From: a bacterium
Lineage (GTDB): Bacteria > SM23-81 > DAOVCL01
Reading direction: 5' to 3'
NCBI GenBank assembly: GCA_029932675.1
Contig: JAOZPP010000005.1
Span: 1-64,000 of the forward strand
Length of the DNA: 64,000 nucleotides
Shown here: positions 2,963 through 57,581 of the stretch, in pieces
How the letters are laid out: each line of letters starts with the position of its first letter
Numbering within the stretch: position 1 is the stretch's first letter
Made by a program: the position numbers and the translations under genes
Notes under the pieces: model-generated
Told to the model about the DNA's origin: nothing
The model's input: only the letters and a program-made list of their open reading frames with translations
Database searches by the model: none

Positions 2963-2998
2963 CAAGGGGCAAGGGGGAGGTGGAAGAATGAGGTGTAT

Positions 2999-3076
2999 CG
3001 TGGTTCGTAGATTGTGCTCGTAAAGGCGAAAGCCAAGAGGTGCAAGGTGAATGCCGAGAGCTGATTACCTAAAACC
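2999..3076. repeat. Intergenic repeat, copy 1 (TCGTRN heptamers)
   Basis: The stretch beginning CGTGGTTCGTAGATTGTGC is nearly repeated at 5092-5177. Both copies lie shortly after the stop codon of a T9SS-cargo gene. The 5' half is made of 7-mers around TCGT (GTTCGTA, GATCGTG, CTCGTAA in the second copy). Confidence 0.65.
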
Positions 3077-3156
3077 CTTTACCCAACACTTGTCATCTTT
3101 CTGAAGTAAAGCTTGATTTTGGGGAAGAAGCTTATGATATGGGAAAAGGAGGATAG

Positions 3157-5058: not shown

Positions 5059-5359
5059 AGATGGAGGGTTGAGATAGGGAGAGATCGTTGCTCGTGGTTC
5101 GTAGATCGTGCTCGTAAAGGCGGAAGCCAAGAGGTGCAAAGTAGATAATGGATCCCGAGAGGTGATTGTCTAAAACTTTTCACTCAAGACCTAAGATCTA
5201 AATAGGAAAGGGGGTGATGTAGAAATCAGAAAATCAGGGCATCAGGGGATCAGAAAAATCAGAGGATTGGATGGGGAGATTCCTGATGTCTGAGAGGGGG
5301 GTGGGTCGGATGAATCCGATCCCTAAAGAAGCCATCTTAACCCAAAAGAGGAGGGAAAG
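5059..5359 (+). repeat. Intergenic repeats between exoprotein genes
   Basis: No gene is apparent. 5092-5177 is the second copy of the repeat at 2999-3076. 5221-5290 is a run of 8-9-base units starting ATCAG (ATCAGAAA, ATCAGGGC, ATCAGGGG, ATCAGAAAA, ATCAGAGG), a degenerate microsatellite related to the one before 758. The ribosome site of the next gene is at 5348-5356. Confidence 0.6.
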
Positions 5360-7600
5360 ATGAGCTGGAGAAGTTTTGTTTTAGTGGGCACAGCCGTTTT
5401 AATGGTTTGTGCTATGGTGGGCCTGGCCCAGGCGCGCGTTGGGCTGAATGATGCCACCGATACCTGCTATATCTACAAACCAGATACCACTGAGGGGCAC
5501 TATGCGATAACATCGTTCTTTGTGACTTATTATGATTCCACAACTGGCAAGCCTGTTTCCTATTTCACCCCACCAGAGCTTATTACTCCTTGGGATAAGG
5601 CAAAGTTCAAGGGTGCTGATGATGTGGCCTTTCGTTCGGCGGTGGACAGCCAGGGGAATATCCATATCGTGTGGATGACGAAATATTGGGGCACTGGGGA
5701 GAAATGGGAGATTGCCTATGAGAAGTTTGATTCCCTTGGGACCCGAGTAGCTGGGCCGATACAAGTATCCGATGTTGGTGATTCTAGTTCTACTCCACCG
5801 CAATACAACTCTGCCTATCCCGCCATTGCCATTGACTCCAATGACGATGCCCACATTGTCTGGATGGATGGGCGGGATGGGAACTGGGAGATATATTACT
5901 CCAAGGTAAGCCATACTGGGTTTGACCTCACCGTTCCCGATGTCTGTATCTCCGACAAGGATGGCTGGGATTCCGGTAGATATATTGACCCTTACTCTGA
6001 GTGGGAGACAGTGGCTGGTTTTCAACAGGGCACAGGCAATCCCATCGTTGCCGTGCACACAGAATTCATTGAGCACCCGGACATCTGCGTGGACGGAGGG
6101 GATACCGTGCACATCGTCTGGAGCGACTACCGGAATGAGGAGGCAGGTGAACACTATTGGCAGGTTTACTGGCAAAGCCAGACTAACGATGCTCTCCCGC
6201 AGGTTATCATTAATGATAGAAAAGTTTCCGAACCTATGTCAGGTCCTTTTGACTGTGTTTCCCCTGCAATTGCTGCTGGCCCACGGGCTCCAATTGCTCC
6301 TTATGACTTTGGCATTGATTTTGTCTGGCAGGAAACCGACTATTGGGGTAGGTGGCACGTTTACTATCGTAAGCTCCACAGCAGTAATGGCCAGGAGATA
6401 ATAGGAAAACTCCATGTGAGTGGGGGTGAAAATTATCTGAATGCAGCCTGCCCTGATGTTGCCGTTGATGATGGCGATTCCGTGTACATTGTCTTTATGG
6501 ATGATCGGGATATCGATCCTGGGCATCACGATTCATCTCATCCTGCGCAGAATGACATTCATATAGACGGGCAGTGGGAAATTTATGTAACAGCTATTGA
6601 TCCTGCAGGAGTCTTCTTTAGGTATCCTAAGCGGGAAAGCGATCTGACCACTACCTCTCACACCACAGAATGGGGTGACCCTCTGTTTGGGGAATATACT
6701 GGCCCTGGTTCGCCTGCTAACCTCCACGACTGTCCCTCTATGTATCCCCAAATATCGGCAGCAGGTCACGGGCAAAGCGGTTGGACAAATGTTACCTGGC
6801 AGGATTATCGGAACCAAAATTGGGATGTCTATTATACAGCGCTGAGCCATCCTGGAGATTGTCCTCAAGCTGACATTCGTTTGACCGCCGATCCGCGACC
6901 GGACAAATATCCCTGTATCTCCAAGGGAAACACCGATAAGCCCGACATCGCTTTCCAGAGGAGGGTTGATCTTGGCTATGGCCCTGAATGGGAGGGTTAT
7001 CACTGCCGGTGGAACGGGGAAAGTGAGTACGTGCGCACTACGGTCATAGACAGCCTTACTGGTGAGCAGGTTGGCGACTACTATCTTTTCCAGATGGACC
7101 CCACGGATACTAATGCCTGGGATGGGGTTAACTATATGTGGACGATGCCCCTTCCGACTGGCACCTACAGGTATCAGTTTAGGGCGAGCATAGATGCGGG
7201 AGCCACTGAGGTGCATACCACTCCTAAATATGCTGCCGTCCCCTCGTTGAGCAACGACAAGACCGGGACCCCTGGTCAAGCTCCTTTAGCTCATCCGGTG
7301 CAGTTCACTCTGGAGCAGAACTATCCCAATCCGTTCAATGCCGCCACCGCCATCCACTACCACCTCCCAGTGGTCAGTGGTCAGCGGTCAGCAGTCAACT
7401 TAAAGATTTACAACATCTTAGGAGAGGAGGTGAGGACGCTGGTGGATAAACCACAGAAAGGAGGGAAGTATGAGGTAAGTTGGGATGGGAGGGATGATAG
7501 GGGCAAGCCAGTGGCCAGTGGGGTATACCTTGCCAGGCTAGAGGTGAAAAGTGATAGGTTAAAGATGACAAGGACGAGGAAGATGGTGTTACTCAGATAG
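5360..7600 (+). CDS. Exported repeat protein with T9SS sorting domain, paralogue of 758-2962
   Basis: A 746-residue exported protein collinear with the one at 758 along its whole length, including the signal peptide (MSWRSFVLVGTAVLMVCAMV) and the segments CISDKDGWDSGRYIDP and VTWQDYRNQNWDVYY. The ATG follows AAGAGGAGGGAAAG. Differences concentrate in short insertions, such as WDKAKFKG near residue 75 and NEEAGEHYW near residue 255. Propeller-like 'hiVWsDyR' repeats fill the middle, and a T9SS type A sorting domain with NYPNPFN starts near residue 647. The two genes are a tandem duplication separated by the Asp-box gene. Function unknown; a surface adhesin or polymer-binding role is only an inference. 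Confidence 0.8.
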   Translation: MSWRSFVLVGTAVLMVCAMVGLAQARVGLNDATDTCYIYKPDTTEGHYAITSFFVTYYDSTTGKPVSYFTPPELITPWDKAKFKGADDVAFRSAVDSQGNIHIVWMTKYWGTGEKWEIAYEKFDSLGTRVAGPIQVSDVGDSSSTPPQYNSAYPAIAIDSNDDAHIVWMDGRDGNWEIYYSKVSHTGFDLTVPDVCISDKDGWDSGRYIDPYSEWETVAGFQQGTGNPIVAVHTEFIEHPDICVDGGDTVHIVWSDYRNEEAGEHYWQVYWQSQTNDALPQVIINDRKVSEPMSGPFDCVSPAIAAGPRAPIAPYDFGIDFVWQETDYWGRWHVYYRKLHSSNGQEIIGKLHVSGGENYLNAACPDVAVDDGDSVYIVFMDDRDIDPGHHDSSHPAQNDIHIDGQWEIYVTAIDPAGVFFRYPKRESDLTTTSHTTEWGDPLFGEYTGPGSPANLHDCPSMYPQISAAGHGQSGWTNVTWQDYRNQNWDVYYTALSHPGDCPQADIRLTADPRPDKYPCISKGNTDKPDIAFQRRVDLGYGPEWEGYHCRWNGESEYVRTTVIDSLTGEQVGDYYLFQMDPTDTNAWDGVNYMWTMPLPTGTYRYQFRASIDAGATEVHTTPKYAAVPSLSNDKTGTPGQAPLAHPVQFTLEQNYPNPFNAATAIHYHLPVVSGQRSAVNLKIYNILGEEVRTLVDKPQKGGKYEVSWDGRDDRGKPVASGVYLARLEVKSDRLKMTRTRKMVLLR
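7368..7402 (+). repeat. In-frame heptanucleotide repeat, sorting-domain site A
   Basis: 7-mers CAGTGGT, CAGTGGT, CAGCGGT, CAGCAGT, CAACTTA encode VSGQRSAVN in the same loop as in the paralogue. Confidence 0.75.
7535..7569 (+). repeat. In-frame heptanucleotide repeat, sorting-domain site B
   Basis: 7-mers AGGCTAG, AGGTGAA, AAGTGAT, AGGTTAA, AGATGAC precede the terminal KMVLLR codons. Confidence 0.7.
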
Positions 7601-7621
7601 AAGCGAGAGATGAATCCGAAT

Positions 7622-7645
7622 GTGGCAGAATTGGGGTTCTGCCAC
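7622..7645. repeat. Dispersed hairpin repeat, copy 1
   Basis: GTGGCAGAA (7622-7630) and TTCTGCCAC (7637-7645) form a perfect 9-bp stem with a six-base loop TTGGGG. Copies occur at 20282 and 61268, always between genes. There is no T-run, so it is not a typical terminator. Confidence 0.7.
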
Positions 7646-7766
7646 CTCCCATTGGAATAAGTGTTAGATCAAAGGTGAAGATCGAAAACTGAGAGGTGTG
7701 AGGATGAAGGTCGAAAACCTGACACCTTACTATCTATAACCTTGTAGAAGGAAGGAGGGAAGGAAA

Positions 7767-10292
7767 ATGTTGCGCAAAATAGTCGTAGTCCTAATATTGG
7801 TGGGCCTTACCCCGGCTTTTGCCTTAGCTGCTGGTTCATCAGGCAGCTATTTGGCAAAGAGCGGGAGATCATACAGGCCCAGTCAACCAGCATCCAAAGG
7901 GGAGATGCTTTACTATGACGATGGTTCTTTTGAGGATGCCCTGGGGATTTACAGCGAGCATTTTGGCTCTATCCCCAGCGATTCCACTATTGGGATTGCT
8001 GCCTTCTTCATTCACCAGGCCTGTAGCCTTCAGGCAGTCTCCGTTTACCTCGATTACAGAACCTCCAATGATTTCTACCTTTGGGTATGGGCTGATTCCA
8101 GTGGAGTGCCCAAATCCGGAGGAACGCCCGTCTATTTCCAGCTTGCAGCCGGGCCGGATTCAGGCTATGTAGGCTGGTGGACTGTTGATATAGAACCTTC
8201 TGTCCCGGTTCCCGATACATTCTGGGTAGGGATCGGTTATAGCTATCTGGGGGCTGAGCCAGAGTGGTATATCGGCTATGATACAGGAACCGAGGATAAC
8301 CTTCATTTCGATGTTAACCTTTGGGGGACTGTTGATAAGTGGGAGAACCTCTGCGACCCCTATGGTAACTGCCATCCCTTAGGTATTAGACCTATAATTT
8401 CATCGGTGGCTATCGACCACGATGTGGGCCTGGTCTCCATAGATGCCCCTCCTGCTCAGGTCTGTCCTAATATGCCCTGTACCCCTAAGGTAACGGTGAC
8501 TAATTTGGGCTCATACTTTGAGACATTCGATGTAAAGATGACCATAAGTCCTGGATATACCAGCACGAGAACTATCACCGATTTGGATCCCGTCTATGGG
8601 GATACGGTGCAGATAAGTTTTGATCCCTGGACAAGTGGAGGCGAGGGGACTTTGTATCAGGTTACAGTTACAGTAGAACTTCCGGGGGATGAAAACTCCA
8701 TAAATGACACCTTGGAAGTTCAGACCTTGGCCTCAGGATGGCAGTTCTATGACGATGGGGGTTTTGAAAGTGGAGTCGGCTTCAATGTCACTGGGACAGG
8801 GGAGATTCCTTCCACAGAAACCTGGGGTTTTGCCACCATCTTCCCATTACCTAATGAGGAGTTAGACTTTGTCATAGATACCATAGCTATCTACTTCAGC
8901 GAGTTTAATGATGATGGCTTTCGACTCTATGTTTGGAAAAACGACCCTTCCTGCCCTGATCAACCACAAAGCCATGGCACCCCTCTCTACAATAATATGT
9001 ATGCTGAAGCCAGCGTGGGTTGGAACTATTATCCAGTAAATGTCTTTACCTCTTCTGATTTTTGGATTGGCGTTTGCTATAATAGAAAAACACTTGGCTC
9101 CCCTCTGTGGGAAATAGGTTTGGATACTACCACATTTGACCAGCATACCAAGGTCAATTTAGATGGGACCGCTTGTAGTTGGTATCTGTGGGATCAGCAG
9201 GGTTATCCGGAGAAGGTTCGTGCCCATGGAATAAGGGTTCACAGAACATGGACAGAAAAACCCCAATTTATCAGGGGTGACTACGATGGCAGTGGACAGT
9301 TGCTCACTAACGATCCTTTGATGGAGCTCCAATGGATCTTTGGTGTCCCGGGTGCTACTGCTCCAACCTGTATGGATGCCGCTGATTACAGCGATGATGG
9401 TGGCGTCTTGACCAATGATCCTCTAATGGCGCTTCAGTACATTTTTGGTGTCCCTGGCTCAACTCCTCCACCGCCTCCTTATCCTGACTGTGGTATAGAT
9501 CCCACTGAGGATGAATTAGATTGTGTCTCCCATCCCTTTTGTATGGGAGGTGGCAAGGAGATAACCTATAGGCCGGCTATTAGCGTGCCGGGGGCCAAGG
9601 AGAGGGTTGTAGTAGGAGAGGCGAAGATAGTCGATGGATTAGTGGAGGTGCCCATTGATTTGGTAGTAAATGATCGAGTTTGTGGATTTGACATCTCCCT
9701 TGGCTATGATGCCTCTACCTTGCGGTTTATTGAAGTAGTGGGTGGAGATGGATATGATTTTTATGCTGTGGACACCCGGGAGGAAGGGATAGTAAGGATT
9801 GGAGGAGTTCCTGATATAGAGATGGTTAAGCTAATGGAGGCAGGGACGCATAAGGTGGGTGTGGTAGTGTTTGAAGTAAAGAGGGAAGCAGATGTGGTGC
9901 TGAGCTGGCGGAAGGTAGAAGTATACGGATCTAATGTGCAGCTTCTACCAGTGGAATGGGTAAATGGGGTAGTTAGGGTGGGTTTACCTACCAAGCATAC
10001 CTTAGAGTCGAACTATCCCAATCCGTTCAACTCTGCTACCCTCATCCGTTACCACCTGCCAGCTATCAGCCATCAGCTATCAGCAGTTAGCTTAAAGGTT
10101 TACAACATCATGGGAGAGGAGGTAAAAACCCTGGTGGATGGGGAGCAGAAAGCGGGCAGTTACCAAGTGGTTTGGGATGGGAAGGACAGTGGAGGCAAAC
10201 CAGTGGCCAGTGGGATATACTTCTGTAGGTTAAAGGTGTTAGGTGATAGGTTAGAGGTGGTGAAGACGAGGAAGATGGTGCTGCTCAGGTAG
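7767..10292 (+). CDS. Modular exported protein with dockerin-like, cohesin-like and T9SS sorting domains
   Basis: An 841-residue exported protein; the ATG follows AAGGAGGGAAGGAAA and a signal peptide is clear. Two homologous beta-rich modules start 'YYDDGSFE' (about residue 48) and 'FYDDGGFE' (about 328), with a CARDB-like adhesion module between them (about 220-320). Residues 505-561 hold two calcium-loop repeats, GDYDGSGQLLTNDPLMELQ and ADYSDDGGVLTNDPLMALQ, resembling type I dockerin. Residues 610-731 resemble a cohesin fold (VEVPIDLVVND, GFDISLGYDASTLRF). A T9SS type A sorting domain (NYPNPFN) follows from about 740. Having dockerin-like and cohesin-like modules in one chain suggests self- or partner assembly at the surface, but neither binding activity is proven. 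Confidence 0.75.
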   Translation: MLRKIVVVLILVGLTPAFALAAGSSGSYLAKSGRSYRPSQPASKGEMLYYDDGSFEDALGIYSEHFGSIPSDSTIGIAAFFIHQACSLQAVSVYLDYRTSNDFYLWVWADSSGVPKSGGTPVYFQLAAGPDSGYVGWWTVDIEPSVPVPDTFWVGIGYSYLGAEPEWYIGYDTGTEDNLHFDVNLWGTVDKWENLCDPYGNCHPLGIRPIISSVAIDHDVGLVSIDAPPAQVCPNMPCTPKVTVTNLGSYFETFDVKMTISPGYTSTRTITDLDPVYGDTVQISFDPWTSGGEGTLYQVTVTVELPGDENSINDTLEVQTLASGWQFYDDGGFESGVGFNVTGTGEIPSTETWGFATIFPLPNEELDFVIDTIAIYFSEFNDDGFRLYVWKNDPSCPDQPQSHGTPLYNNMYAEASVGWNYYPVNVFTSSDFWIGVCYNRKTLGSPLWEIGLDTTTFDQHTKVNLDGTACSWYLWDQQGYPEKVRAHGIRVHRTWTEKPQFIRGDYDGSGQLLTNDPLMELQWIFGVPGATAPTCMDAADYSDDGGVLTNDPLMALQYIFGVPGSTPPPPPYPDCGIDPTEDELDCVSHPFCMGGGKEITYRPAISVPGAKERVVVGEAKIVDGLVEVPIDLVVNDRVCGFDISLGYDASTLRFIEVVGGDGYDFYAVDTREEGIVRIGGVPDIEMVKLMEAGTHKVGVVVFEVKREADVVLSWRKVEVYGSNVQLLPVEWVNGVVRVGLPTKHTLESNYPNPFNSATLIRYHLPAISHQLSAVSLKVYNIMGEEVKTLVDGEQKAGSYQVVWDGKDSGGKPVASGIYFCRLKVLGDRLEVVKTRKMVLLR
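10060..10094 (+). repeat. In-frame heptanucleotide repeat, sorting-domain site A
   Basis: 7-mers CAGCTAT, CAGCCAT, CAGCTAT, CAGCAGT, TAGCTTA encode AISHQLSAVS. This is a CAGCYAT family, different from the CAGYGGT family of the three preceding genes. Confidence 0.75.
10227..10261 (+). repeat. In-frame heptanucleotide repeat, sorting-domain site B
   Basis: 7-mers AGGTTAA, AGGTGTT, AGGTGAT, AGGTTAG, AGGTGGT precede the terminal KMVLLR codons. Confidence 0.75.
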
Positions 10293-10379: not shown

Positions 10380-11954
10380 CTATTGGGCAGGTCGCCAGAT
10401 GAAGAAGCTTTCCTCCCTTACCGCACACCTTCCCTGGGAGATGTAACGGGAGGATGAATTGTAGTCCCAGCCGAGGTATTGGGAATCCCCACCTCCATGG
10501 GTGGTGACGAAGAGGTGGTTGGAAAGTTTTCCAATGGCGCTTATTCTGTCTGCACCATACTTCCTATCTCCCCTACTGGGGTCTATGGGCACCCAGCCAT
10601 ATCCAGGGAAGTAGACCTCTGCCCAACGGTGATAAACCGCATCTACCGATGCCTCATCCCCCCTCATCGATGTTCCCGCCTCGAATCGGGCCGGCAGGCC
10701 GCCTGCCCTGCAGAGGGCGATGAAGAGAAATGTATACTCCGAACAGGAACCGGTTCCCCTTTTGATTAAAGTGGGAGCTACATCCCACCCTCCGGTTCTC
10801 TCATATTCCATATGATCTATCACCCACTGGAATACCTTTCTGGCTATCCAATAGGTATTCCTTTCCTTGCCGATGATTTCTCTTGCTTTATCCTTTACTA
10901 AATCTCCAGTAATGAGATATCTGGACCCTTCACCAAGCCACTTATCCTTTACCTCCTGGGGTATTTCTTCGAGGTTCCCGGCCCTCTCCGGAAGGAGTGG
11001 GTAGCTGATGGTCCTCAAGCGGGCCTTCACCCTATAGCCAACCTCAACCCTCCGGTTGGGGGGAAGGTCCTTAATCGGGTAAATGGCCACCTTCTGTCCC
11101 CAGCGGTCGGTTACTACCTGAGCGGGTTGGGGTTTGAACCTGATCGGGGAGAGCAATTGCTGGCGAGGAGAGCTTGAGGGGACTGCGATGGCTATCTGGC
11201 CCCACCTTATCATCCCTGGTCCCAGGTTCTCCACCCTATGGACGAACTCTAACTCTACCCGGCGCTGCTCAGTAACTCGAAATAGGGGAAAGGTGGTAAG
11301 GTCTATGCTATAGAGGCTATCTGTTTGGAAGTCCACATTCCAGAGCGACTTCCCATCCCAGGCCAAGCCACAAGGGTAAGGGCCGGGGGAGGAAATTGAG
11401 GTTATTACCCTCCCATCCTGGGGGCGGAGGAGATAGATCTCGTCCTTAATCCTATCGGCCACCCAGATGTATCGGCCGTCAAAACAGACGCCCTGGGAGT
11501 AAGGGTAGGGTGCGGGGAAGTAATCCAAGGTAGTACCATCCAGGGGGTTCAGCAGATAGATCAACTCCTTATCCGCCAAGATGAGGGCCTTACCATCCCA
11601 ACCCAGTCCCACCGGTGAGGAACCGGGGGCAGGGAACCTTACCTTTACCTCTCCACTTCGAGGGTCGAAGCCATAGATCATCCCCTCTTCCCCATCGACT
11701 ACGAAGAGTTTCTCCTTAACCCAGGCCAAGCCCAGCGGTCGGGGACAGGGGGCTGAGAAGCTCCCCCTTACCTTGCCTGATGCGGGATCGAGTGCATAGA
11801 TCTTGGCCTCCCTCCAGTCGGCCAGCCAGAGGTTCTTTCCGTCCCATCCCAGGCCTGCGGGGCAACGGGTAGGGGAGGGGAAACCATGAGCGCTAAGGAG
11901 AGAAGGGCAAAATAGCACGAAAAGCAGGAGGAGAATACGAACTGCTCTTAACAT
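10380..11954 (-). CDS. Exported NHL-type propeller fused to a transglutaminase-like domain
   Basis: A 524-residue exported protein with ATG behind AAGGAGGGAAAA and a signal peptide of about 22 residues. Residues 30-220 contain five degenerate blades of the form 'GLaWDGk.LwvaD....iy.ldp.dG', an SMP-30/NHL-like propeller. Residues 370-470 are a transglutaminase-like (papain-fold) domain with the expected triad: Cys404 in GTGSCSEYT, His442 in YHRWAEV and Asp458 in PIDPS. Such domains act as cysteine proteases or amidases or bind peptides. The 10-base gap to the upstream membrane bactofilin gene suggests one operon. There is no sorting domain, so a periplasmic location is likely. Confidence 0.75.
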   Translation of the reverse strand: MLRAVRILLLLFVLFCPSLLSAHGFPSPTRCPAGLGWDGKNLWLADWREAKIYALDPASGKVRGSFSAPCPRPLGLAWVKEKLFVVDGEEGMIYGFDPRSGEVKVRFPAPGSSPVGLGWDGKALILADKELIYLLNPLDGTTLDYFPAPYPYSQGVCFDGRYIWVADRIKDEIYLLRPQDGRVITSISSPGPYPCGLAWDGKSLWNVDFQTDSLYSIDLTTFPLFRVTEQRRVELEFVHRVENLGPGMIRWGQIAIAVPSSSPRQQLLSPIRFKPQPAQVVTDRWGQKVAIYPIKDLPPNRRVEVGYRVKARLRTISYPLLPERAGNLEEIPQEVKDKWLGEGSRYLITGDLVKDKAREIIGKERNTYWIARKVFQWVIDHMEYERTGGWDVAPTLIKRGTGSCSEYTFLFIALCRAGGLPARFEAGTSMRGDEASVDAVYHRWAEVYFPGYGWVPIDPSRGDRKYGADRISAIGKLSNHLFVTTHGGGDSQYLGWDYNSSSRYISQGRCAVREESFFIWRPAQ

Positions 11955-13352: not shown

Positions 13353-13390
13353 GAAAATTTTAGGCACACCCACGAGACCGCGGATGTGCC
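13353..13390 (-). terminator. Intrinsic terminator after the cobalamin locus
   Basis: Read on the minus strand, GGCACATCC and GGGTGTGCC form a 9-bp stem (one G-U pair) around a 10-base loop, followed by TAAAATTTT. It lies 30 bases beyond the stop codon of the propeller gene and would end the riboswitch-controlled transcript. Confidence 0.55.
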
Positions 13391-13420
13391 CTTCACAGAG
13401 AGAAGCTGGGATAAGCCCGC

Positions 13421-14839
13421 TCACTTAATCAACAACATCTTCCGCACTTCCTTTACCCTTTGCCCTCTGACTTTTAACCTGTAGATATAGACTCCACTGG
13501 CAACTGGGTTGCCCCCTGAGTCCTTACCGTCCCAGACGACAGAATATCCCCCAGGTCCTTTCTCCTCATCCACCAGGGTCCGCACCAACTGACCAGCAAT
13601 GTTGTAGACTTTTAAACTAACGTAGCTCGTGCTCGTGGATCGTGCTCGTGAATCACCCTCCCCCGAACACGAGTAACTTTTGAGGGTGGCAGGGTAGAGA
13701 CGATCTACGAACAACGAGTAACGAACAACGGTTGTTGCATTAAACGGATTGGGGTAGTTCTGTTCCAAAGCAAATCGGCTGGGAAGGGGGACATCTTTGG
13801 CTTCGTCAACAAAATCCGCTCCGCCGTAGATGGCCATATCCTGAGCCCCATCGCCAAAGCCGTAGGTGGCCATCACCGAGTCATTTTGGGGAGAGAACTT
13901 CTGCACTGCGTCATCACCAAAATTGCTCACCCAGATCACGTCCTCTCTATCATCGTAGAGAACCCTCATCGCCCCCTTGCCAATGCGGATTGGATTGTCC
14001 CGGCTATGGTAAACATCCCCAGTGTAGACATCATAGCTATAGAGGAAGCCACTTTTCTCATCGCCCCAGTCGGGGAGATAGCCTCTGCCCCCTTGGGTGA
14101 TTGCTATGTCCCCTGGCCAACCGCCGAGCTCGACGGTATCCACCACCGCCGGTGTCGAATCCGGTCCTGCCCAGCGGTCTATAACACAGACCTTGCCGGC
14201 ATTGGCCTCCCAGAGCCCTGAACAGACCACATGGACCCTTCCATCTGGAGCCAGGGCCAGGTCCTGGGCGTTGCGGGGCATAGGAAGGGTTGTAGTCACC
14301 TCATCGGTAGCAAGATCAATAACCGAGACCGAGGAAGGTGCAAAGTCTGGATGCCCTCCGCTGTTGGCCACAAAGGCCAGGTTATCCACCACCAAGATTC
14401 CCTCAGGCCCAACTCCAACGGGAATATCTTTCACCACTAAACCATTCTCTAAATCAACAACCGACACGGTATTTGCCAAGTAGTTGGTCACATAAGCCCT
14501 GTTAGAGCCAACAACTGCCATAAACCAGGGATTGCTCCCCTCGGCCAGGCCGATCCGCCTCTCCACCCCTTCATCTTGGGGATCGATCACCATAATCTCC
14601 GGCGGCGTGGAATTGACCACGTAGATCCTCTCTTCGAAGCCAACCACCTGATTGGGAATATCCCCCAGTTGGAGAAAATCATTGGTGATCTCAGAAGTCT
14701 CTAAGTTCATCTTGGAAAGGGTTCTCCCCAACCCATTTAGGACATATAAGGTGCGAGGGATATCCCCCCCGTAGAGAACGGAAGCCAAGCCAATCAGAGA
14801 CAAAACCCTGATCATCAATAGGATTTTTGTGCTTCTCAC
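13421..14839 (-). CDS. YncE/BtuG-like beta-propeller with T9SS sorting domain
   Basis: About 472 residues. The start chosen is the GTG at 14839, five bases after AAGGAGGGGG, giving a signal peptide (RSTKILLMIRVLSLIGLASVLYG). Residues 30-345 are a YncE-type seven-bladed propeller with repeats such as AYVTNYLANTVSVVDLENG, 'vpVGvgPeGi' and 'NAQDLALAPDGRVHVV'. The same fold family includes BtuG, the surface cobalamin-binding protein of Bacteroides. The last 115 residues are a T9SS type A sorting domain (NYPNPFN) with an unusual insertion of about 30 residues between strands 1 and 2. It is the last gene of the riboswitch locus, 388 bases after the TonB receptor gene. Cobalamin binding is inferred from context only. 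Confidence 0.7.
   Translation of the reverse strand: MRSTKILLMIRVLSLIGLASVLYGGDIPRTLYVLNGLGRTLSKMNLETSEITNDFLQLGDIPNQVVGFEERIYVVNSTPPEIMVIDPQDEGVERRIGLAEGSNPWFMAVVGSNRAYVTNYLANTVSVVDLENGLVVKDIPVGVGPEGILVVDNLAFVANSGGHPDFAPSSVSVIDLATDEVTTTLPMPRNAQDLALAPDGRVHVVCSGLWEANAGKVCVIDRWAGPDSTPAVVDTVELGGWPGDIAITQGGRGYLPDWGDEKSGFLYSYDVYTGDVYHSRDNPIRIGKGAMRVLYDDREDVIWVSNFGDDAVQKFSPQNDSVMATYGFGDGAQDMAIYGGADFVDEAKDVPLPSRFALEQNYPNPFNATTVVRYSLFVDRLYPATLKSYSCSGEGDSRARSTSTSYVSLKVYNIAGQLVRTLVDEEKGPGGYSVVWDGKDSGGNPVASGVYIYRLKVRGQRVKEVRKMLLIK
13446..13480 (-). repeat. In-frame heptanucleotide repeat, sorting-domain site B
   Basis: On the coding strand the 7-mers AGGTTAA, AAGTCAG, AGGGCAA, AGGGTAA, AGGAAGT encode KVRGQRVKEV just before the terminal KMLLIK. 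Confidence 0.65.
13621..13735 (-). repeat. Oligomer-repeat insertion in sorting-domain site A
   Basis: Around 100 bases inside the sorting domain consist of TCGTG-type units (CTCGTGCTCGTGGATCGTG) and ACGARYA heptamers (ACGAACA, ACGAGTA, ACGAACA). They encode a segment including SCSGEGDSRARSTSTS that other sorting domains lack. The same TCGT heptamers occur between genes at 2999 and 5092. Confidence 0.65.
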
Positions 14840-15026
14840 AGCCCCCTCCTTTTTGTATGCACTGAAGGAAAGCAAAAAGACCTAAAGATTTGCCCCTCCT
14901 CCGCCGGAATCGCGGATAAAAGCAGTCTTCATAGTGGGGCAAGGCCGTAACCCAATAATTCACCGCAGAGGACGCTTTAAAGGTTCTTACCACTCTGGTC
15001 ACTAAATGGATTATGGGCCATTGCGA

Positions 15027-15090
15027 GCCCCGTTAGATATCAATGATGGTTCGCTGAACTCCAAGATTGGCAGAAATTATCTAACGGGGC
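15027..15090. repeat. Perfect 13-bp inverted repeat
   Basis: GCCCCGTTAGATA (15027-15039) and TATCTAACGGGGC (15078-15090) are exact inverted copies about 38 bases apart, each flanked by a GCGAG string. They lie in the 387-base gap between the TonB receptor and the following propeller gene, where no coding sequence was seen. Confidence 0.6.
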
Positions 15091-15163
15091 GAGCGAATAA
15101 AGTGCGGTAGAAGTTGATACTTTGAGCAACCCAAAATTGGAGTACAAAGCCGGTGGGGATTTA

Positions 15164-15233
15164 TGAATAATTCGGATCCATCAGGGCAGAGCCCTACCAG
15201 CACAGGGAGACTTTGGAGCATACGAATTATTCA
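15164..15233. repeat. Inverted repeat overlapping the TonB receptor stop codon
   Basis: TGAATAATTCG (15164-15174) and CGAATTATTCA (15223-15233) are exact inverted copies, with an inner GGGC/GCCC stem. The right arm covers the stop codon of the receptor. It could be a weak terminator or a 3' processing/stability stem between receptor and propeller cistrons. Confidence 0.45.
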
Positions 15234-17467
15234 GCCCGATAATCCCATTTTAAGGCCCTCTTCAGGGTCAGCCCGATCCTCCACTCCCGTGGGGGGAGGG
15301 GGGCTCTTTCCATAATCTGGTATTTCACATTCCTTAGGTTGTATATCGAGCCCCTGATCTGAACATCCACCCCCTTGATCCTTGGCTTCACCCCAACGGT
15401 GAGATCATCCACCTCATAGCCAGGCATCTCTACGGTGTTGGCCTCGGTGACGAATCTCTCACCGATTAGCCTCCGCCGGTATTGGAGTTGGAAGATCCGG
15501 TAGTTCAAATCCACTCCGATCCTGACACTCCTGCGAAGACGGTAAGGAAGGTCCCTGTTGTGAGTGGTCCTCTCCCCGCTTTTGTTGATCGGCTTAAGAT
15601 GAGTCCGACTCCAGCGCAAGCCAAAGATCTCGTCAGGACTCTGCCAGCTCAGCTCGTACTCCTCTCCAGATATCTCAGCATTGGTATTAAAGGGAGAGAA
15701 GGTGGCAAAGGAGCCCAGCCTCCAAATTATGAGGTCATCCACCTTGTTGTAAAAATGGGTGAGTTCTGCTTGAAGTTCACCCCAGATATGCCACTTGATG
15801 CTTACTCCGAGTTCGAAGGAGAAGGACTTTTCGGGTTTCAGGTCCGGCTTGCCCTTAACCCGATACTCCTGGTAGAATAGATCAGCGAAAGTCGGGGGAC
15901 GAAATGAACGACCGAGATTAGCCTTAAGCCCAATTCTATTCAGCTTGCCTCGCCAAAGAAGTAGGCCTAGCTTGGGACTCCATTGCCTCTCATACTCACT
16001 TGCCTCTTTATTTTTAATGCGGATCCGATCGTAGCGTAGCGCTGAGGTCAATAGCCCCTGTTTAAACCCTATAGGAAAAGGAAACTTTAATTCATCATAG
16101 AGCCAGATCCCATGGGTGTAATCCCTGGTCTCCCCTATCGGTTCATTAGAGGGCTGAATTAGATCCTCATCGGTATAGTGGGTCCAGTTCCCTTCGTAGC
16201 CGAAGCGAAGGGTCCCCAACCCCTGCAGGAAAACCTGGGTGGTAAATCTTAGCTGGTAGTCGGTCAGCCAACTTTTAGAGTGATATCGAGGGACAGTGCG
16301 ATACCGCAGAGGGACATCAGGAGGGTAGATGTGCCTGTATTCTGTGGTTGATCTGTGATAGCTCAGGTGAATATCTGCTTGCACCCGCCTCCAATGGGCG
16401 CCACAGTGACCTCCCAAGATGTTCCGATCTGTCTTCGCCCTGGCATAAGGGGTGAGGCCAAAGATCAATCCCGGCAATCCCCGCTCTGAGCGGAACCGAT
16501 AACCGTGTAGTTCAAATTCGTAACTTCCCCATTGGTAACTGAACTTACCAAACCCACAGTTGGAGAAGAAGTCAGCGTTAATCCGATCTTCCTTAATCGT
16601 GGTTCCATCCGGTCGCTCGTAGGAGTAGGGGTAATCCCCCTCGCTTTTCTGCTGTTCAAAGGAGACAAAATACCCCAGTCTCTTCAGACTACCAGAGAAA
16701 GTTGGGGCCCAGTTAGTTGTGCCATATGCCCCGACTTCCCCCTGTAGGGTTATCTGGGACTGGGATGGCTTCCTGGTTAGGATATTGATGACGCCACCGA
16801 TGGCCCCAGCACCGAAACGGGCCGAGCTCCCTCCCTTGATGACCTCGATCCTCTCCACCATTCTCAAGGGGATATTGGTCAGATCCACCTCTCCGATTAG
16901 AGCATCGTTGAGTTTGATGCCATCCAGCAGAACCAGCACCTGGTTTGGGCGACTGCCGCGGATGGAAACCGTCTTCTCCCCATCCTTCTCCTGAATCTCC
17001 ACCCCTGGAACCTGCTGGAGGATCTCCCCTAAGTTTTGAGCATTGCTTTGTTCGATATCCTTGGCCGTGATGATTACCACCGAGGTTGGCTGTTCCTCTG
17101 GAATGCGACTACCAATGACGGTAATACAGGGCAGGTTAATAACCTTGGGTTGAAGATCGAAATCAACCTCCACAGGACGATCCAGGCCCACCTTAACTCC
17201 AGACTTGGTCTGGCTCTCATACCCTATATAGCTGGCGGTTATGGTGTATTCGCCCACGAAGAGGTTCTCGATCACCCATCGACCGCATTCATCTGAGGAG
17301 GTCCCCAGGCCGGTGCCCTCCACCACGATATTGGCTCCATAGAGGGGCTTGTGGGTGGTTCGATCCCGAACCACCCCCGTTATCTTCACCACCGACTGGC
17401 ACCAGCCTGAGGTAAAGGTCAGAAGGATCAGAAGAGCAATCCTTGATAGGTGGATAAGCTGTTTCAT
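15227..17467 (-). CDS. TonB-dependent outer-membrane receptor, BtuB-like
   Basis: 746 residues. A signal peptide of about 23 residues is followed by a carboxypeptidase-regulatory-like domain (about 26-105, GVVRDRTTHKPLYGANIVVEG) common in FCB receptors. Next comes the plug (about 118-225: NLGEILQQVPGVEI, VSIRGSRPNQVLVLLDGIKL, ERIEVIKGGSSARFG) and a 22-strand-type barrel. Plug wording and size are close to BtuB/CirA rather than SusC. It starts 11 bases after the preceding propeller gene without a good ribosome site, suggesting translational coupling. The cobalamin riboswitch upstream makes cobalamin or another corrinoid the likely substrate. No BtuFCD genes are in the window, so the inner-membrane step must be encoded elsewhere. 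Confidence 0.85.
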   Translation of the reverse strand: MKQLIHLSRIALLILLTFTSGWCQSVVKITGVVRDRTTHKPLYGANIVVEGTGLGTSSDECGRWVIENLFVGEYTITASYIGYESQTKSGVKVGLDRPVEVDFDLQPKVINLPCITVIGSRIPEEQPTSVVIITAKDIEQSNAQNLGEILQQVPGVEIQEKDGEKTVSIRGSRPNQVLVLLDGIKLNDALIGEVDLTNIPLRMVERIEVIKGGSSARFGAGAIGGVINILTRKPSQSQITLQGEVGAYGTTNWAPTFSGSLKRLGYFVSFEQQKSEGDYPYSYERPDGTTIKEDRINADFFSNCGFGKFSYQWGSYEFELHGYRFRSERGLPGLIFGLTPYARAKTDRNILGGHCGAHWRRVQADIHLSYHRSTTEYRHIYPPDVPLRYRTVPRYHSKSWLTDYQLRFTTQVFLQGLGTLRFGYEGNWTHYTDEDLIQPSNEPIGETRDYTHGIWLYDELKFPFPIGFKQGLLTSALRYDRIRIKNKEASEYERQWSPKLGLLLWRGKLNRIGLKANLGRSFRPPTFADLFYQEYRVKGKPDLKPEKSFSFELGVSIKWHIWGELQAELTHFYNKVDDLIIWRLGSFATFSPFNTNAEISGEEYELSWQSPDEIFGLRWSRTHLKPINKSGERTTHNRDLPYRLRRSVRIGVDLNYRIFQLQYRRRLIGERFVTEANTVEMPGYEVDDLTVGVKPRIKGVDVQIRGSIYNLRNVKYQIMERAPLPPREWRIGLTLKRALKWDYRAE

Positions 17468-17478
17468 CGGCGAGGCTT

Positions 17479-18804
17479 CTATCGCAGAAGAACCATCCTT
17501 CTTGCCTGGATGAAATCTCCAGCTTCGAGGTGGCAGAAGTAAACCCCGCTGGCAAAATCTGAGGCATACCAGGAGACGCTCTTCTGCCCTGCTTTCTGGT
17601 ATTCATCCACCAAAGTGGCCACCCGCTGGCCCAGCAGGTTATAGATTTCCAGTTTGACCCAACAGCCTTTTGGCAAGCCATAGGCGATCTGGGTGACTGG
17701 GTTGAAGGGATTGGGATAATTCTGCAGAAGCGCAAAACCTCGGGGAACTAAATCCTCCTCCTCTGCCACCCAGGTGGAATCGCTGGCAGGACGGATAGCT
17801 ATGGACACCGGGCCATCGCCGACCGAGAAGGTCCACACCACCACATCGTTGGTATCTATCTGGGAGACGGTATTGGCCATAAAGTTACAGGAGTAGGCGT
17901 AGTTATCCTTGTCACAGCCAATTCCCAAAGCACCCTTTCCCACCAGAATGGGATTATCCGGGCCGCGCAGCACCTGGTTGGTTTCGGTATCAAAAGTGTA
18001 GACAAAACCGTGGTCGCTGGGGTACCAGCCTCCGGCCGCCAGATAAGCTATGCCCCGAGGGCTAATGGCTATGGCTGTTGGGGCTCCGCCGATAGCGATG
18101 CTGTCTACGACAGAGTCGCTTACCGTATTGATCACATATATCCTTCCTGGGATCGACCAGTAGTCTCCGGTGCAGACGACATTCAGCTCACCGTCTTGGT
18201 CTAAGGCCAGGTCCTGTGGATTGGTGCCCACATCGATAACCTTTACCACCGAGTCTGTGGTTGACTCGATGACGGAGACAGTCCCCTGCCCGTAGGTTCC
18301 CGTTAAAGTATCCCACTCCGTGTTGGTTACATAGACCTTATCCCCTACCACAGCCACCCCCTCCGGACCAACTCCGACGGCTATTTGATCGATGACCTCT
18401 CGGGTGTTGACATTCACCACCGAAACCGAGTCGATGTTGAAGTCGGTCACATAGGCAATGCTATCGTTGAGAAAGGCCATATGCCAGGGGTTGCTGTAGG
18501 GCTGGGTCATCTCAATGTATCCCTCAGTGCTGTCTGCATCCAGGTTGATGATCTGGATGTTGTTCGATGTGCGATCTGAGTTGATCACATAACCTTTGTT
18601 CCCCCTTATCACAATCTGATTGGGGGTCTTCCCCACGTCCACCACATCGTTGAAGACCTCGTTTGTCTCCAAATTGATGCGAGATAGGCTCTCCGACGAT
18701 GTCGCCCCATTCACCACCCAGGCTGTCTTTGGATTCCCTGCGATGGAGCTTGTTACGGCAACTCCAATGATCAGAATCCCTGCAAGAAATAGACTACCCT
18801 TCAT
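17479..18804 (-). CDS. YncE/BtuG-like beta-propeller with T9SS sorting domain
   Basis: 441 residues from the ATG at 18804, chosen for GGAAGGGAGAAAG upstream and a clean signal peptide (MKGSLFLAGILIIGVAV). A longer frame from 18867 has no ribosome site. Residues 28-345 are YncE-type blades (SESLSRINLETNEVFNDVVD, KVYVTNTEWD, PQDLALDQDGELNVVCTGD), similar throughout to the propeller at 13421. A T9SS type A sorting domain (NYPNPFN, VKLEIYNLLGQ) starts near residue 355. It sits directly upstream of the BtuB-like receptor, as BtuG propellers pair with BtuB in Bacteroides. The inferred role is surface capture of cobalamin and hand-over to the receptor. Its sorting domain lacks the heptamer repeats found in most others. 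Confidence 0.75.
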   Translation of the reverse strand: MKGSLFLAGILIIGVAVTSSIAGNPKTAWVVNGATSSESLSRINLETNEVFNDVVDVGKTPNQIVIRGNKGYVINSDRTSNNIQIINLDADSTEGYIEMTQPYSNPWHMAFLNDSIAYVTDFNIDSVSVVNVNTREVIDQIAVGVGPEGVAVVGDKVYVTNTEWDTLTGTYGQGTVSVIESTTDSVVKVIDVGTNPQDLALDQDGELNVVCTGDYWSIPGRIYVINTVSDSVVDSIAIGGAPTAIAISPRGIAYLAAGGWYPSDHGFVYTFDTETNQVLRGPDNPILVGKGALGIGCDKDNYAYSCNFMANTVSQIDTNDVVVWTFSVGDGPVSIAIRPASDSTWVAEEEDLVPRGFALLQNYPNPFNPVTQIAYGLPKGCWVKLEIYNLLGQRVATLVDEYQKAGQKSVSWYASDFASGVYFCHLEAGDFIQARRMVLLR

Positions 18805-19049
18805 AGTCTTTCTCCCTTCCAGTTTGAGGTTAATGTTGGGCTCCGAAGCCAGAGCACTATCTTTCAAATATGCATTCTATCACCCCCTCGCTTTGAGACT
18901 GTCTGCCTATTACAAAACTGGTAAGACAAGGGATTGGAAACCTTATTATGGCGATGGAGCCCCATCTTGCGGCTTCGACAAATTGAACCCCTGGTATACA
19001 CCGAACTTGGCTCCTCAAGGTTGTGTGGGGCGGCCTCTGTCTCATCTCT

Positions 19050-20033
19050 CTATCTGATCAGCACAAGTCTCCTCGTCCTTTCAGCTTTCGGCTTTCGGCT
19101 TTCAGCTTTCAGCCCTATCACTTCTAACCTACATAGATACACCCCGCTGGCCAACTCTCCCCCCAGGTTGTCTTTTCCATCCCAGATTACGGTATATTCT
19201 CCGGGCGACTGTTGTTCATCCACCAGGGTCCTCACCTCCTGGCCTAAGATGTTGTAGACCCGGAGGGTGACGGCGGTCTGCGGACGGCCGACGGCCGACA
19301 GACGGTAGCGGATGAGGGTGGAGGAGTTAAACGGATTGGGGTAATTTTGGGCCAAGAGAAAGGAGCCTGGTAGGTTTTTCTCATCACCCCCCCTGCACCC
19401 ACTCGATGAGTGGATGGCAACAATGGCATCCAGATCGAAGGAGGGGCCTGAATCCTGAACCAGGCTGTCCGCATCGGTAACCCTGACAAAACGAGCAGAG
19501 GGCAAACCCACCTCGGCTAAGTCGAAGGAGTCTCCCCCAGAGACAGTCGGATCAGTGGGATCCGCGGCCCCATTGGTGGGAGTCACCCCGGCCAATCCGG
19601 CGAAGGTTTTGGGATCATAGGGAAACTCAATGAAGTCAATCCCATCCTGGCTAACTGCCACTATTCCCGTCTCGGCATAGGACTTGGTGGTATCTCCTCC
19701 TATATAGAAGGGGTTTTCGAAGACGGTGAAATCGGGGCCTTCCTTGTCCACTATGATGTTGTCAATAAATTCCAAAATGATACTCCCACCTGTTCCCAGG
19801 GACAAAAGTTCCCGAGGGCTACTACTGGGGCTGGTAGATGTGGCCATTGAATCCGGTGGCCCGAGCACATTGCCCGGAAAATATGGCTCTCCGAAACCGG
19901 CTCCCGGCCCGGGAGAAAAAGCAACCACGGAATCGGCCCAGGGGTCACCAAGATCCTGTGGCAAACCCTCCGAAAAGGGGTAAGATATTGCCAACAGGAT
20001 AAGCATCCCGATTAAGGTTCTACCTCTTCCCAT
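19050..20033 (-). CDS. T9SS-sorted surface protein of the cobalamin locus
   Basis: 327 residues, ATG behind AGAGGAGGCAGAC, with signal peptide. Residues 35-215 form one domain with the segments NVLGPPDS, SLGTGGSIILEF, GPDFTVFENPF, AVSQDGIDFIEFPYD and ARFVRVTDAD. This type is usually annotated only as 'cell surface protein'; I recall similar proteins near corrinoid uptake genes but cannot verify it here. From about residue 232 it ends in a T9SS type A sorting domain. It is the first cistron after the B12 riboswitch and terminator, which is the main clue to its role in corrinoid acquisition. Confidence 0.65.
   Translation of the reverse strand: MGRGRTLIGMLILLAISYPFSEGLPQDLGDPWADSVVAFSPGPGAGFGEPYFPGNVLGPPDSMATSTSPSSSPRELLSLGTGGSIILEFIDNIIVDKEGPDFTVFENPFYIGGDTTKSYAETGIVAVSQDGIDFIEFPYDPKTFAGLAGVTPTNGAADPTDPTVSGGDSFDLAEVGLPSARFVRVTDADSLVQDSGPSFDLDAIVAIHSSSGCRGGDEKNLPGSFLLAQNYPNPFNSSTLIRYRLSAVGRPQTAVTLRVYNILGQEVRTLVDEQQSPGEYTVIWDGKDNLGGELASGVYLCRLEVIGLKAESRKPKAERTRRLVLIR
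19079..19134 (-). repeat. In-frame heptanucleotide repeat, sorting-domain site B
   Basis: In plus orientation: TTTCAGC, TTTCGGC, TTTCGGC, TTTCAGC, TTTCAGC, then CCTATCA, CTTCTAA, CCTACAT. The coding strand reads GLKAESRKPKAE before the terminal LVLIR. Confidence 0.75.
19267..19308 (-). repeat. In-frame heptanucleotide repeat, sorting-domain site A
   Basis: In plus orientation: GTGACGG, CGGTCTG, CGGACGG, CCGACGG, CCGACAG, ACGGTAG. The coding strand reads SAVGRPQTAVT in the same loop as the other sorting domains, from a GC-rich heptamer family. Confidence 0.7.
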
Positions 20034-20400
20034 TGTCTGCCTCCTCTGACAAACATTGTTTTAGATCCCAAGTTTTACAGAGTTTTTCATAGAAACCGCA
20101 GATTCACGCAAATGGACGCAGATTCTACCGCACTTTAGTGCGGGTTCAGAAACTGAGAAGAGTGAGATTGCTCGTCGCAGAGCCTGTGCTGAGAGGGATC
20201 AAAGCGCTCCTCGCCAAGACCCATCCCTTTGCCTGTCATTGCGAGTCCCGAGCGGGTGGGTGCCCTTAGCTGATGGTACTGGTGGCAGAATCGGGGTTCT
20301 TCCACCTCGGTAATAACTTTCTAATTTCCATTTTCGCCTCGATTTGCGGCTTTGCTGCGCTATGTCTATCTGGGTTCATCCGTGGTTGGCTATTATTTGA
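20034..20400 (-). other. Untranslated stretch between terminator and first cobalamin-locus gene
   Basis: No gene was found in about 370 bases. It contains a hairpin CCGCAC/GTGCGG near 20129-20144, an oligomer string GCAGATTCACGCAAATGGAC of dispersed-repeat type, and the second copy of the dispersed hairpin at 20282-20305. It would form a long 5' untranslated segment after read-through of the riboswitch terminator. Confidence 0.5.
20282..20305. repeat. Dispersed hairpin repeat, copy 2
   Basis: GTGGCAGAA (20282-20290) faces TTCTTCCAC (20297-20305) with one mismatch and the loop TCGGGG. The preceding bases (TGCCCTTAGCTGATGG) resemble those before the copy at 61268, so the repeat unit is about 55 bases. 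Confidence 0.65.
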
Positions 20401-20402
20401 AA

Positions 20403-20441
20403 TAAAAAACCCGACCTTCTTAGGAAGAAAGTCGGGTTTTA
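20403..20441 (-). terminator. Riboswitch expression-platform terminator
   Basis: Read on the minus strand, AAAACCCGACTTTCTT and AAGAAGGTCGGGTTTT form a long stem with a tiny loop, followed by TTTTTTATT. It lies about 50 bases downstream of the B12 box and is the likely transcription-off structure of the cobalamin riboswitch. Confidence 0.85.
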
Positions 20442-20488
20442 CCCGGATACTCCGAACCTCACCCTCGAAGGTTTCTGGAATTCCAAAC

Positions 20489-20692
20489 GAACCCGGCAGG
20501 TTTCCTGACTTAGGGCTTCAAACCTACTCACCAGACCTTCCCATTCCGACTTCGGTCAGAACAGTGGTTCTCTTAAGTCATCAGGCCTAATCGCCTGAAT
20601 GACTTGGCTGGCTTTCGTAGCCCATCACAGTAGCGGGGCTGTGACGGATTCTCACCGTCTTCCCTTTTACCCTGATAAGGCACCGGGAACAC
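20489..20692 (-). ncRNA. Cobalamin (B12) riboswitch
   Basis: On the minus strand the canonical blocks appear in order: GGTGCC near 20683, AAAAGGGAA near 20665, GGTGAGAATCCGTC at 20643-20656, ACAGCCCCGCTACTGTGA at 20625-20641, GGGAAGG near 20550, and the B12 box AGTCAGGAAACCTGCC at 20495-20510. The spacing and the peripheral stem between the core and the B12 box fit an adenosylcobalamin-class aptamer of about 200 nt. A strong intrinsic terminator follows, so binding of cobalamin should stop transcription of the surface protein, propeller and BtuB-like receptor genes downstream. Confidence 0.95.
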
Positions 20693-20715
20693 AAGATTTA
20701 CCAAAGAACAAACTC

Positions 20716-20743
20716 AATATAGCAGACTCTCAGCAGAAGTCAA
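20716..20743 (-). promoter_or_regulatory. sigma70-type promoter of the cobalamin locus
   Basis: On the minus strand TTGACT (20738-20743) and TATATT (20716-20721) are 16 bases apart, preceded by an A-tract and CCC. Transcription would start near 20709, just before the riboswitch aptamer. Confidence 0.8.
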
Positions 20744-56609: not shown

Positions 56610-57581
56610 ATGAAAAGAATGTTGGCTTTTATACTCTTTTTGCTTTTTGTTCAAGTCTTCATCCCCCAGGTCTCAAAGGCCAGATTAGGGGGGGCAGGTG
56701 TGGGGTTCCTCAATTTGGGGGGGGGGAGTAGGGGTATAGCTTTAGGGGGAGCGTACAGTGCTCCAGCAGAAGGGTTAGAGGCTATCTATTGGAATCCTGC
56801 GGGATTGGCCTATATGGAGAGGACGAGTGTCTCTTTCACCCATGGTCAACTTTACGCCGATCTCAAAAATGAGAATGTCGCTTTTGCTATGCCCTTGGGA
56901 GGAGGTGTATTGGGATTTAGTGGATATGCCCTTCTATCTGGAAAGATAGAGAAGACCACCATAGAAGATCAGGACGGCACAGGGGAATTTTATACCGCTA
57001 ATGATTTCGCCGGTGGCATATCTTACGCCCGTATGATGACCGACAAATTCGCTTTTGGTTTAACAGTCAAACTAATTGACGCAAATATAGACAAATGTTC
57101 AGCTATTGCTTGGGCCTTTGATATAGGGGGGACCTATAACACCGGTTTTAGGAATTTGCGGTTGGGATTCGTTATACGCAATTTTGGGCCAGATACCCAT
57201 TATGAGGGGGAGAATTTGCAATATCTCGAAAACGAGTATTTGAAGGCTACTTACCGTTCCGATCCCTTCCCCTTGCCAATGAGCTTTCAAATGGGCTTTG
57301 CCTATGATGTTATTAACTCTAAGGATAACAAAATAACTGCGCTTGTCGATTTAGTTCATCCGATTGATCAGGACGAAACGATTGCTGGGGGGATCGAATA
57401 TTGGTTGAGGGACACATATGCCTTAAGGGTAGGTTATTCTGAAGAAAACAATAGAGGATTGCGTGGGGGGGTGGGAGTGAAACTCTCTTTGGGGACGATC
57501 AAAACAAATATCGATTACAGCTATGAGTTTCATCAATATCTTGATGGGATTCAACGTTTTACAATTGAGTTTACATATTGA
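56610..57581 (+). CDS. PorV/PorQ-family outer-membrane protein
   Basis: 323 residues, with ATG behind AAAATAGGAGGTGGGGTC. After a signal peptide the typical start appears: FLNLGGGSRGIALGGAYSA, then EGLEAIYWNPAGLAYME. It continues as a beta-barrel of the FadL-like PorV/UPF0164 type (AFGLTVKLIDA, EYWLRDTYALRVGY) ending with an aromatic residue (FTIEFTY). In T9SS organisms PorV shuttles cargo from the translocon to the sortase complex, and other members act beside secreted proteins. It follows the large exported protein by 32 bases, so the two may work together. The other T9SS core genes are not in the window. Confidence 0.8.
   Translation: MKRMLAFILFLLFVQVFIPQVSKARLGGAGVGFLNLGGGSRGIALGGAYSAPAEGLEAIYWNPAGLAYMERTSVSFTHGQLYADLKNENVAFAMPLGGGVLGFSGYALLSGKIEKTTIEDQDGTGEFYTANDFAGGISYARMMTDKFAFGLTVKLIDANIDKCSAIAWAFDIGGTYNTGFRNLRLGFVIRNFGPDTHYEGENLQYLENEYLKATYRSDPFPLPMSFQMGFAYDVINSKDNKITALVDLVHPIDQDETIAGGIEYWLRDTYALRVGYSEENNRGLRGGVGVKLSLGTIKTNIDYSYEFHQYLDGIQRFTIEFTY

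Follow-up and report, generated by a model that had tools for sequence, protein, structure and literature searches.

A cobalamin-riboswitch operon predicted to pair BtuH- and BtuG-type proteins bearing T9SS-type tails with a BtuB-like receptor outside Bacteroidota

The BtuG proteins of Bacteroides thetaiotaomicron (BT1954, BT1490 and BT2095) are seven-bladed propellers whose genes adjoin btuB under a cobalamin riboswitch, and in BtuG1 the propeller is fused to a BtuH domain (PMC10404256). Nearly all of 114 BtuG homologues have a lipobox cysteine and a lipoprotein export signal; with the BLAST settings used, homologues were found only in Bacteroidetes, nearly always as lipoproteins (PMC6143338). 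TonB receptors capped by a lipoprotein are apparently exclusive to Bacteroidetes (PMC10404256), and btuH homologues have been noted in three Firmicutes (PMC8941943). Here, we describe a locus within a 64,000-nucleotide stretch of bacterial DNA from outside Bacteroidota (the whole stretch is hereafter the window). We are confident, if short of certain, that this locus is a B12-repressed corrinoid-scavenging operon in which BtuH- and BtuG-type proteins delivered by T9SS serve a BtuB-like receptor; repression by B12 is read from the regulatory sequence, without expression data. The way of working that we propose is that of BtuB/BtuG/BtuH in Bacteroides, and the differences lie in how the capture proteins are attached, in which phylum the system occurs and, probably, in what carries the corrinoid across the inner membrane.

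The only Rfam match above threshold in the window is to the cobalamin riboswitch, RF00174, at positions 20702-20478 on the minus strand (cmscan, 90.4 bits, E 4.5e-21, gathering score 31.5), and covers the full model (1-189). This aptamer (20478-20702) is preceded by a sigma70-like promoter at 20716-20743 (minus strand; TTGACT-16-TATATT, with TG before the second hexamer, matching the consensus at 10 of 12 positions) and followed by an intrinsic terminator at 20406-20440 (minus strand; a 16-pair stem and T-run found by a hairpin scan), which we presume to be the expression platform. A terminator-like hairpin of 13 pairs (13362-13391, minus strand; hairpin scan) lies after the last gene. The scans found no more consensus sites in this region than in shuffled sequence, and it is the placement of the promoter and terminator around the riboswitch, not the number of sites, that is suggestive. 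Downstream are four open reading frames, all on the minus strand, at 19050-20033, 17479-18867, 15227-17467 and 13421-14875; ribosome-binding sites put the likely true starts of the two propeller genes at 18804 (441 aa) and 14839 (472 aa). The initial annotation of this DNA had described a promoter, a B12 riboswitch and a terminator followed by four minus-strand genes, and had asked for a covariance-model search for RF00174; the search, the reading frames and the scans bear that description out. The interval between the terminator and the first gene, about 370 bases long, contains short dispersed repeats, and the consensus scan detected no promoter-like site in it. Two such repeats were seen in this gap (20247-20308 and the stretch 20040-20400); the 361-base stretch has counterparts at 45 other positions in the genome, most of them matching over about 28 bases.

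The gene at 15227-17467 (minus strand) encodes a TonB-dependent receptor of 746 aa, with Pfam matches to Plug, to the barrel and, at the N-terminus, to CarboxypepD_reg. Its best NCBIfam family is TIGR01779, the TonB-dependent B12 receptor, at 171.8 bits, which is below the equivalog cut-off of 599.7, and phmmer matched it to the BtuB chains 8bmx_C, 8p97_A and 8blw_A. By sequence, the plug resembles those of E. coli BtuB and CirA, and the C-terminal barrel resembles those of the Bacteroides BtuB structures 8bmx_C and 8p97_A. As judged from these alignments, the plug and barrel are related to Bacteroides BtuB, in agreement with the earlier reading of this gene as a BtuB-like TonB receptor; the N-terminal CarboxypepD_reg extension and the score below the TIGR01779 cut-off set it apart from the BtuB proteins of Bacteroides and E. 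coli. Given that score, and 156 bits against the TonB-hemin family, the locus could conceivably take up another tetrapyrrole or a cobalt compound, such as heme, under B12 control. We give this hardly any credence, since the best family is nonetheless the B12 receptor and since the propeller and the 327-aa protein discussed below resemble corrinoid-bound structures. Cobinamide as the substrate would not alter the argument, being itself a corrinoid and a ligand of BtuG2 as well (PMC10404256).

On either side of the receptor gene lies a gene for a putative BtuG-like protein. The first (17479-18804, minus strand) encodes, within its 441 aa, a signal peptide, a seven-bladed propeller (17788-18738) and a T9SS C-terminal domain (about 17482-17730); the second (13421-14839, minus strand; 472 aa) has the same parts, with the propeller at 13826-14770 and the C-terminal domain at about 13424-13774. 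Both propellers match BtuG chains by sequence (8ptf and others), the second matching 8ptf with an E of 2.6e-7 in phmmer. Structural comparison rests on an AF2 model of the first propeller only, built from a ten-row alignment (mean pLDDT 94.9), to which the second propeller is 38% identical. In Foldseek, BtuG chains occupy ranks 1-8 and 10-17 for this model (best E 4.8e-20, TM about 0.8). In VIA, the archaeal S-layer propeller 1l0q comes first (Z 38.4) and BtuG1 second (35.4), with other BtuG chains at 34-35 and BtuG chains as a whole at ranks 2 and 5-12. Fold and sequence together thus point to BtuG, and the structure comparison that the initial annotation had called for, with BtuG at the top of the Foldseek list, supports its view of the propellers as BtuG counterparts; corrinoid binding remains inferred, with no binding data.

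Because VIA ranks 1l0q above BtuG, the fold alone would neither exclude a general YVTN propeller nor settle the ligand. YVTN propellers are widespread, and 1l0q is also the top match by sequence, so the two proteins might be general YncE or S-layer-like surface proteins that stand in a B12 operon by chance. Since the fold is compatible with either, gene context has to decide. The arrangement that characterises BtuG, a gene adjoining btuB under a B12 riboswitch, is present here, and when protein score was the sole criterion for collecting 20 further propeller loci, 14 of these proved to carry a same-strand cobalamin riboswitch upstream and three more to have a receptor alongside. Together with the lead of BtuG chains in Foldseek, this makes a chance association very unlikely. 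The propellers differ from BtuG of B. thetaiotaomicron in sequence, with about 20% identity, in coming from outside Bacteroidota, and in their attachment: none of the surface proteins of the locus has a lipobox cysteine at its N-terminus, such as nearly all BtuG homologues have, and the propellers have a signal peptide and a C-terminal T9SS-type tail in place of a lipoprotein signal.

The first gene of the operon (19050-20033, minus strand) encodes a 327-aa protein with a signal peptide, a surface domain (19368-19955) and a T9SS-type C-terminal domain (about 19053-19355). There is no Pfam match for the surface domain, phmmer against the PDB returned only FlgD, for the tail, and a three-row profile gave nothing useful; the identity of the protein was revealed only by a 22-row profile and a predicted structure. 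Relatives of the domain occur in 35 of the 386 genomes that we surveyed, and an E-N pair is invariant in the 22-row alignment of relatives. Against the PDB, the profile made from this alignment matched a single chain, 8blw_B (residues 393-499, E 0.005), and the matched stretch lies within the BtuH domain of BtuG1 (PMC10404256). The AF2 model of the 327-aa protein (pLDDT 91.2) has as its best VIA match 7biz_A, which is B12-bound BtuH2 (Z 14.2 over 153 residues, 22% identity), and as its second the H-domain of BtuG1 in 8blw_B (Z 13.3), with the next matches at Z 10.2 or lower; 8blw_B is also the top Foldseek match (E 8.6e-7). Two of the B12 contacts of BtuH2 are made by Asn399, to the phosphate, and by Phe401, to the lower base (PMC8941943). 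The GNAF motif of the BtuG1 fragment, matched to 7biz_A, aligns with VFEN-x-F of our protein, such that its Asn107 and Phe109 align with Asn399 and Phe401 (numbering via 7biz_A). All 106 relatives checked keep the Asn, and 85 of them keep the Phe. This comparison leaves out the corrin-ring contacts Tyr510, Trp577, Trp511 and His476.

On the evidence of profile, modelled fold and aligned residues, the 327-aa gene is a btuH homologue, with corrinoid binding predicted only. It had previously been called a third surface protein; the surface assignment and T9SS-type tail stand, and the identity is now corrected to a BtuH-type domain. The protein shares with BtuH (BT1956) and the H-domain of BtuG1 the fold over about 150 residues and the Asn/Phe pair, and in KSB1 and Zixibacteria-like genomes the domain lies C-terminal to a propeller, fused as in BtuG1. 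It differs from BtuH in its low identity (about 23%), in the absence of PKD domains, in having a T9SS-type tail in place of the lipid, with no lipobox such as a surface lipoprotein of the BtuH kind would need, and in having relatives in many phyla. With this identity, the predicted order of the operon becomes btuH-btuG-btuB-btuG. DUF4465 (BtuJ) was considered as an identity for the 327-aa protein and set aside, as there is no Pfam match to it and no BtuJ chain among the Foldseek and VIA matches listed; a distant link is not excluded. All 22 members of the BtuH-like alignment match NF033170 (LIC_13355 family lipoprotein), a Leptospira-named NCBIfam family without a function, with a best E of 3.3e-20, and for this reason that family may bind corrinoids too; the protein of our locus scores 34.7 bits on NF033170, against a cut-off of 120.

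All three surface proteins thus begin with a signal peptide that lacks a lipobox and end in a domain of the Por_Secre_tail/FlgD_ig type. On TIGR04183 (cut-off 23), the first propeller protein scores 39.2 bits and the 327-aa protein 24.9; the second propeller protein, at 16.6, is below that cut-off, and scores 40.3 on Pfam FlgD_ig (cut-off 27). The genome encodes SprA (758.7 bits, in one frame), PorV (215.6) and PorU (750.1), with PorK-N outside the search; a tail of this kind also closes PorU itself and is found at about 40 other places in the genome. Given the tails and the presence of these three genes, T9SS export of the surface proteins is likely, with the function of the system in this phylum inferred from gene content. 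In Porphyromonas gingivalis, the heme-binding protein HBP35 and the gingipains are T9SS cargo for nutrient capture, and our locus resembles these in bringing a nutrient-binding protein to the surface by means of a C-terminal T9SS signal; it differs in the class of ligand and in the pairing of the cargo with a riboswitch-controlled B12 receptor. In the open-access literature, which does not cover subscription papers or preprints, we came across no account of a corrinoid system that relies on T9SS delivery, nor was one known to the initial annotation. The T9SS as such has been reviewed (PMC5445135).

The earlier proposal that the three proteins are both exported and anchored by their T9SS C-terminal domains is supported in its first part, by the tails and the T9SS genes. 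Anchoring is not shown, since the tail serves for export and is as a rule removed by cleavage, and in Bacteroidota T9SS cargo can be released; in the absence of localisation data, surface location is a prediction. It is therefore possible, albeit unlikely in our estimation, that the exported proteins are released into the medium or kept in a surface layer as free corrinoid scavengers, and do not form a receptor lid. Such release would also fit the absence here of the lipid-anchored N-terminal linker that has been proposed as the hinge of BtuG2 (PMC10404256). Nonetheless, in most relatives the coding sequences for propeller, BtuH domain and receptor are neighbours, and this propeller family also includes members that resemble lipoproteins, suggesting that attachment to the cell is useful. 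We therefore retain the receptor lid as the preferred reading, and the contact between propeller and receptor that it implies is inferred.

The locus was noted at the outset to have no BtuFCD, and this is borne out; moreover, there is no FecCD permease, and hence no BtuC, in the whole of the 97%-complete genome, the same search being positive in 13 of 14 control genomes. CbiC is likewise absent from the genome. One EcfT is present, along with six matches to B12-binding domains, five of them above the cut-off. A second cobalamin riboswitch (C47:4255-4437, 111.4 bits) is followed by genes for an ECF S-like protein and for another BtuB-like receptor, the whole locus (L038) spanning C47:4255-6941 of genome G000; the S-like protein has only weak Pfam matches, below the cut-off. 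Because FecCD and CbiC are missing and EcfT, an S-like gene behind a riboswitch and B12-binding domains are present, the gene content fits an organism that is unable to make the corrin ring and imports corrinoids by an ECF transporter, with the ECF step inferred and the assignment of the S-component weak. Small membrane genes, ECF S-like or DUF6580, neighbour B12 loci in three other genomes (G002, G004 and G012).

We propose that when intracellular cobalamin is low, transcription would pass the riboswitch terminator. The BtuH-type protein and the two BtuG-type propellers would then cross the inner membrane by their signal peptides and the outer membrane by T9SS, which would read their C-terminal domains; PorU would presumably trim the tails and fix the proteins to the surface. 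A propeller would cradle the corrinoid and hand it to the BtuB-like receptor for import with TonB energy, and the BtuH-type protein would serve as a second capture site. The ECF transporter whose S-component is encoded behind the second riboswitch would probably carry the corrinoid over the inner membrane.

The initial annotation had suggested looking for the same arrangement in related genomes, and the same content of riboswitch, receptor, propeller and surface protein does recur elsewhere. Of the 28 strongest BtuH-like relatives in the survey of 386 genomes, 24 have a same-strand cobalamin riboswitch upstream, and most have a propeller and/or a receptor gene beside them. For the named loci, which were picked by protein pattern and not by RNA, an upstream riboswitch on the same strand is present in 54 of 80; the chance expectation is about 0.002 riboswitches per locus, calculated from two riboswitches in 3.03 Mb. 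The named relatives were drawn from a narrower alignment, not from the broad 22-row one. Homologous loci without a riboswitch had been put forward as grounds for refutation, and these do occur (26 of 80), with 11 of them having less than 2.8 kb of upstream DNA; we consider that they weaken the case little. The genomes with BtuG/BtuH-type proteins are labelled KSB1, Calditrichota, Zixibacteria, Gemmatimonadota, Fermentibacteria, Chlorobiota, Kapaibacteria, Sumerlaeota and Deltaproteobacteria, and most of the proteins are encoded next to cobalamin riboswitches. Twenty propeller-BtuH fusions, from KSB1, Calditrichota and others, order their domains as BtuG1 of B. thetaiotaomicron does, and 18 of these end in a T9SS tail.

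In a tree of propellers, the second propeller of our locus groups with the T9SS-tailed fusions, in a clade with good support. The tree implies about ten changes of attachment label, of which at least four, on well-supported branches, are for T9SS. These counts are rough: the tree came from a short search, and the labels were assigned by rule, some of them probably wrongly. We lean towards the view, although only slightly, that BtuG/BtuH-type corrinoid capture is an outer-surface module of many phyla with exchangeable attachment (T9SS tail, lipid, dockerin or PEP-CTERM), of which the lipoprotein form in Bacteroides would be one branch only; the T9SS form would then need a lid mechanism without a lipid hinge. 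BtuG/BtuH-type proteins are thereby placed in many environmental phyla for which we found none described in the literature, a shared set of binding domains being joined to a variety of surface attachments. A family that has no Pfam entry gains a testable function, and corrinoid scavenging is predicted in uncultured bacteria. Within the genus, just one further genome was searched (G001), and it lacks the BtuH-like gene and the propellers; a genome from another phylum (G004) has the receptor with 66% identity and the second propeller of our locus with about 70% identity; the absence from the congener and the similarity of the receptor across phyla make horizontal transfer of the locus plausible, as far as sequence comparison can tell. 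Among BtuG- or BtuH-type proteins of other loci, dockerin-like ends in place of a T9SS tail were seen at L042:9281-10540, L083:8434-10308 and L229:2360-3583, a PEP-CTERM end at L098:6080-6922, and a lipobox in others.

Elsewhere in the window, positions 1001-10292 encode a series of near-duplicate secreted proteins (repeat families D1-D3 and D5) that bear T9SS-type tails; the last of them (7767-10292) contains dockerin-like repeats and matches cohesin weakly. Of the nine PorV-family proteins above the family cut-off in the genome, one lies in the window at 56697-57575 (197 bits). Lastly, downstream of a bactofilin-like membrane protein, positions 10380-11954 encode a secreted protein that combines a propeller-like N-terminal half with a transglutaminase core.
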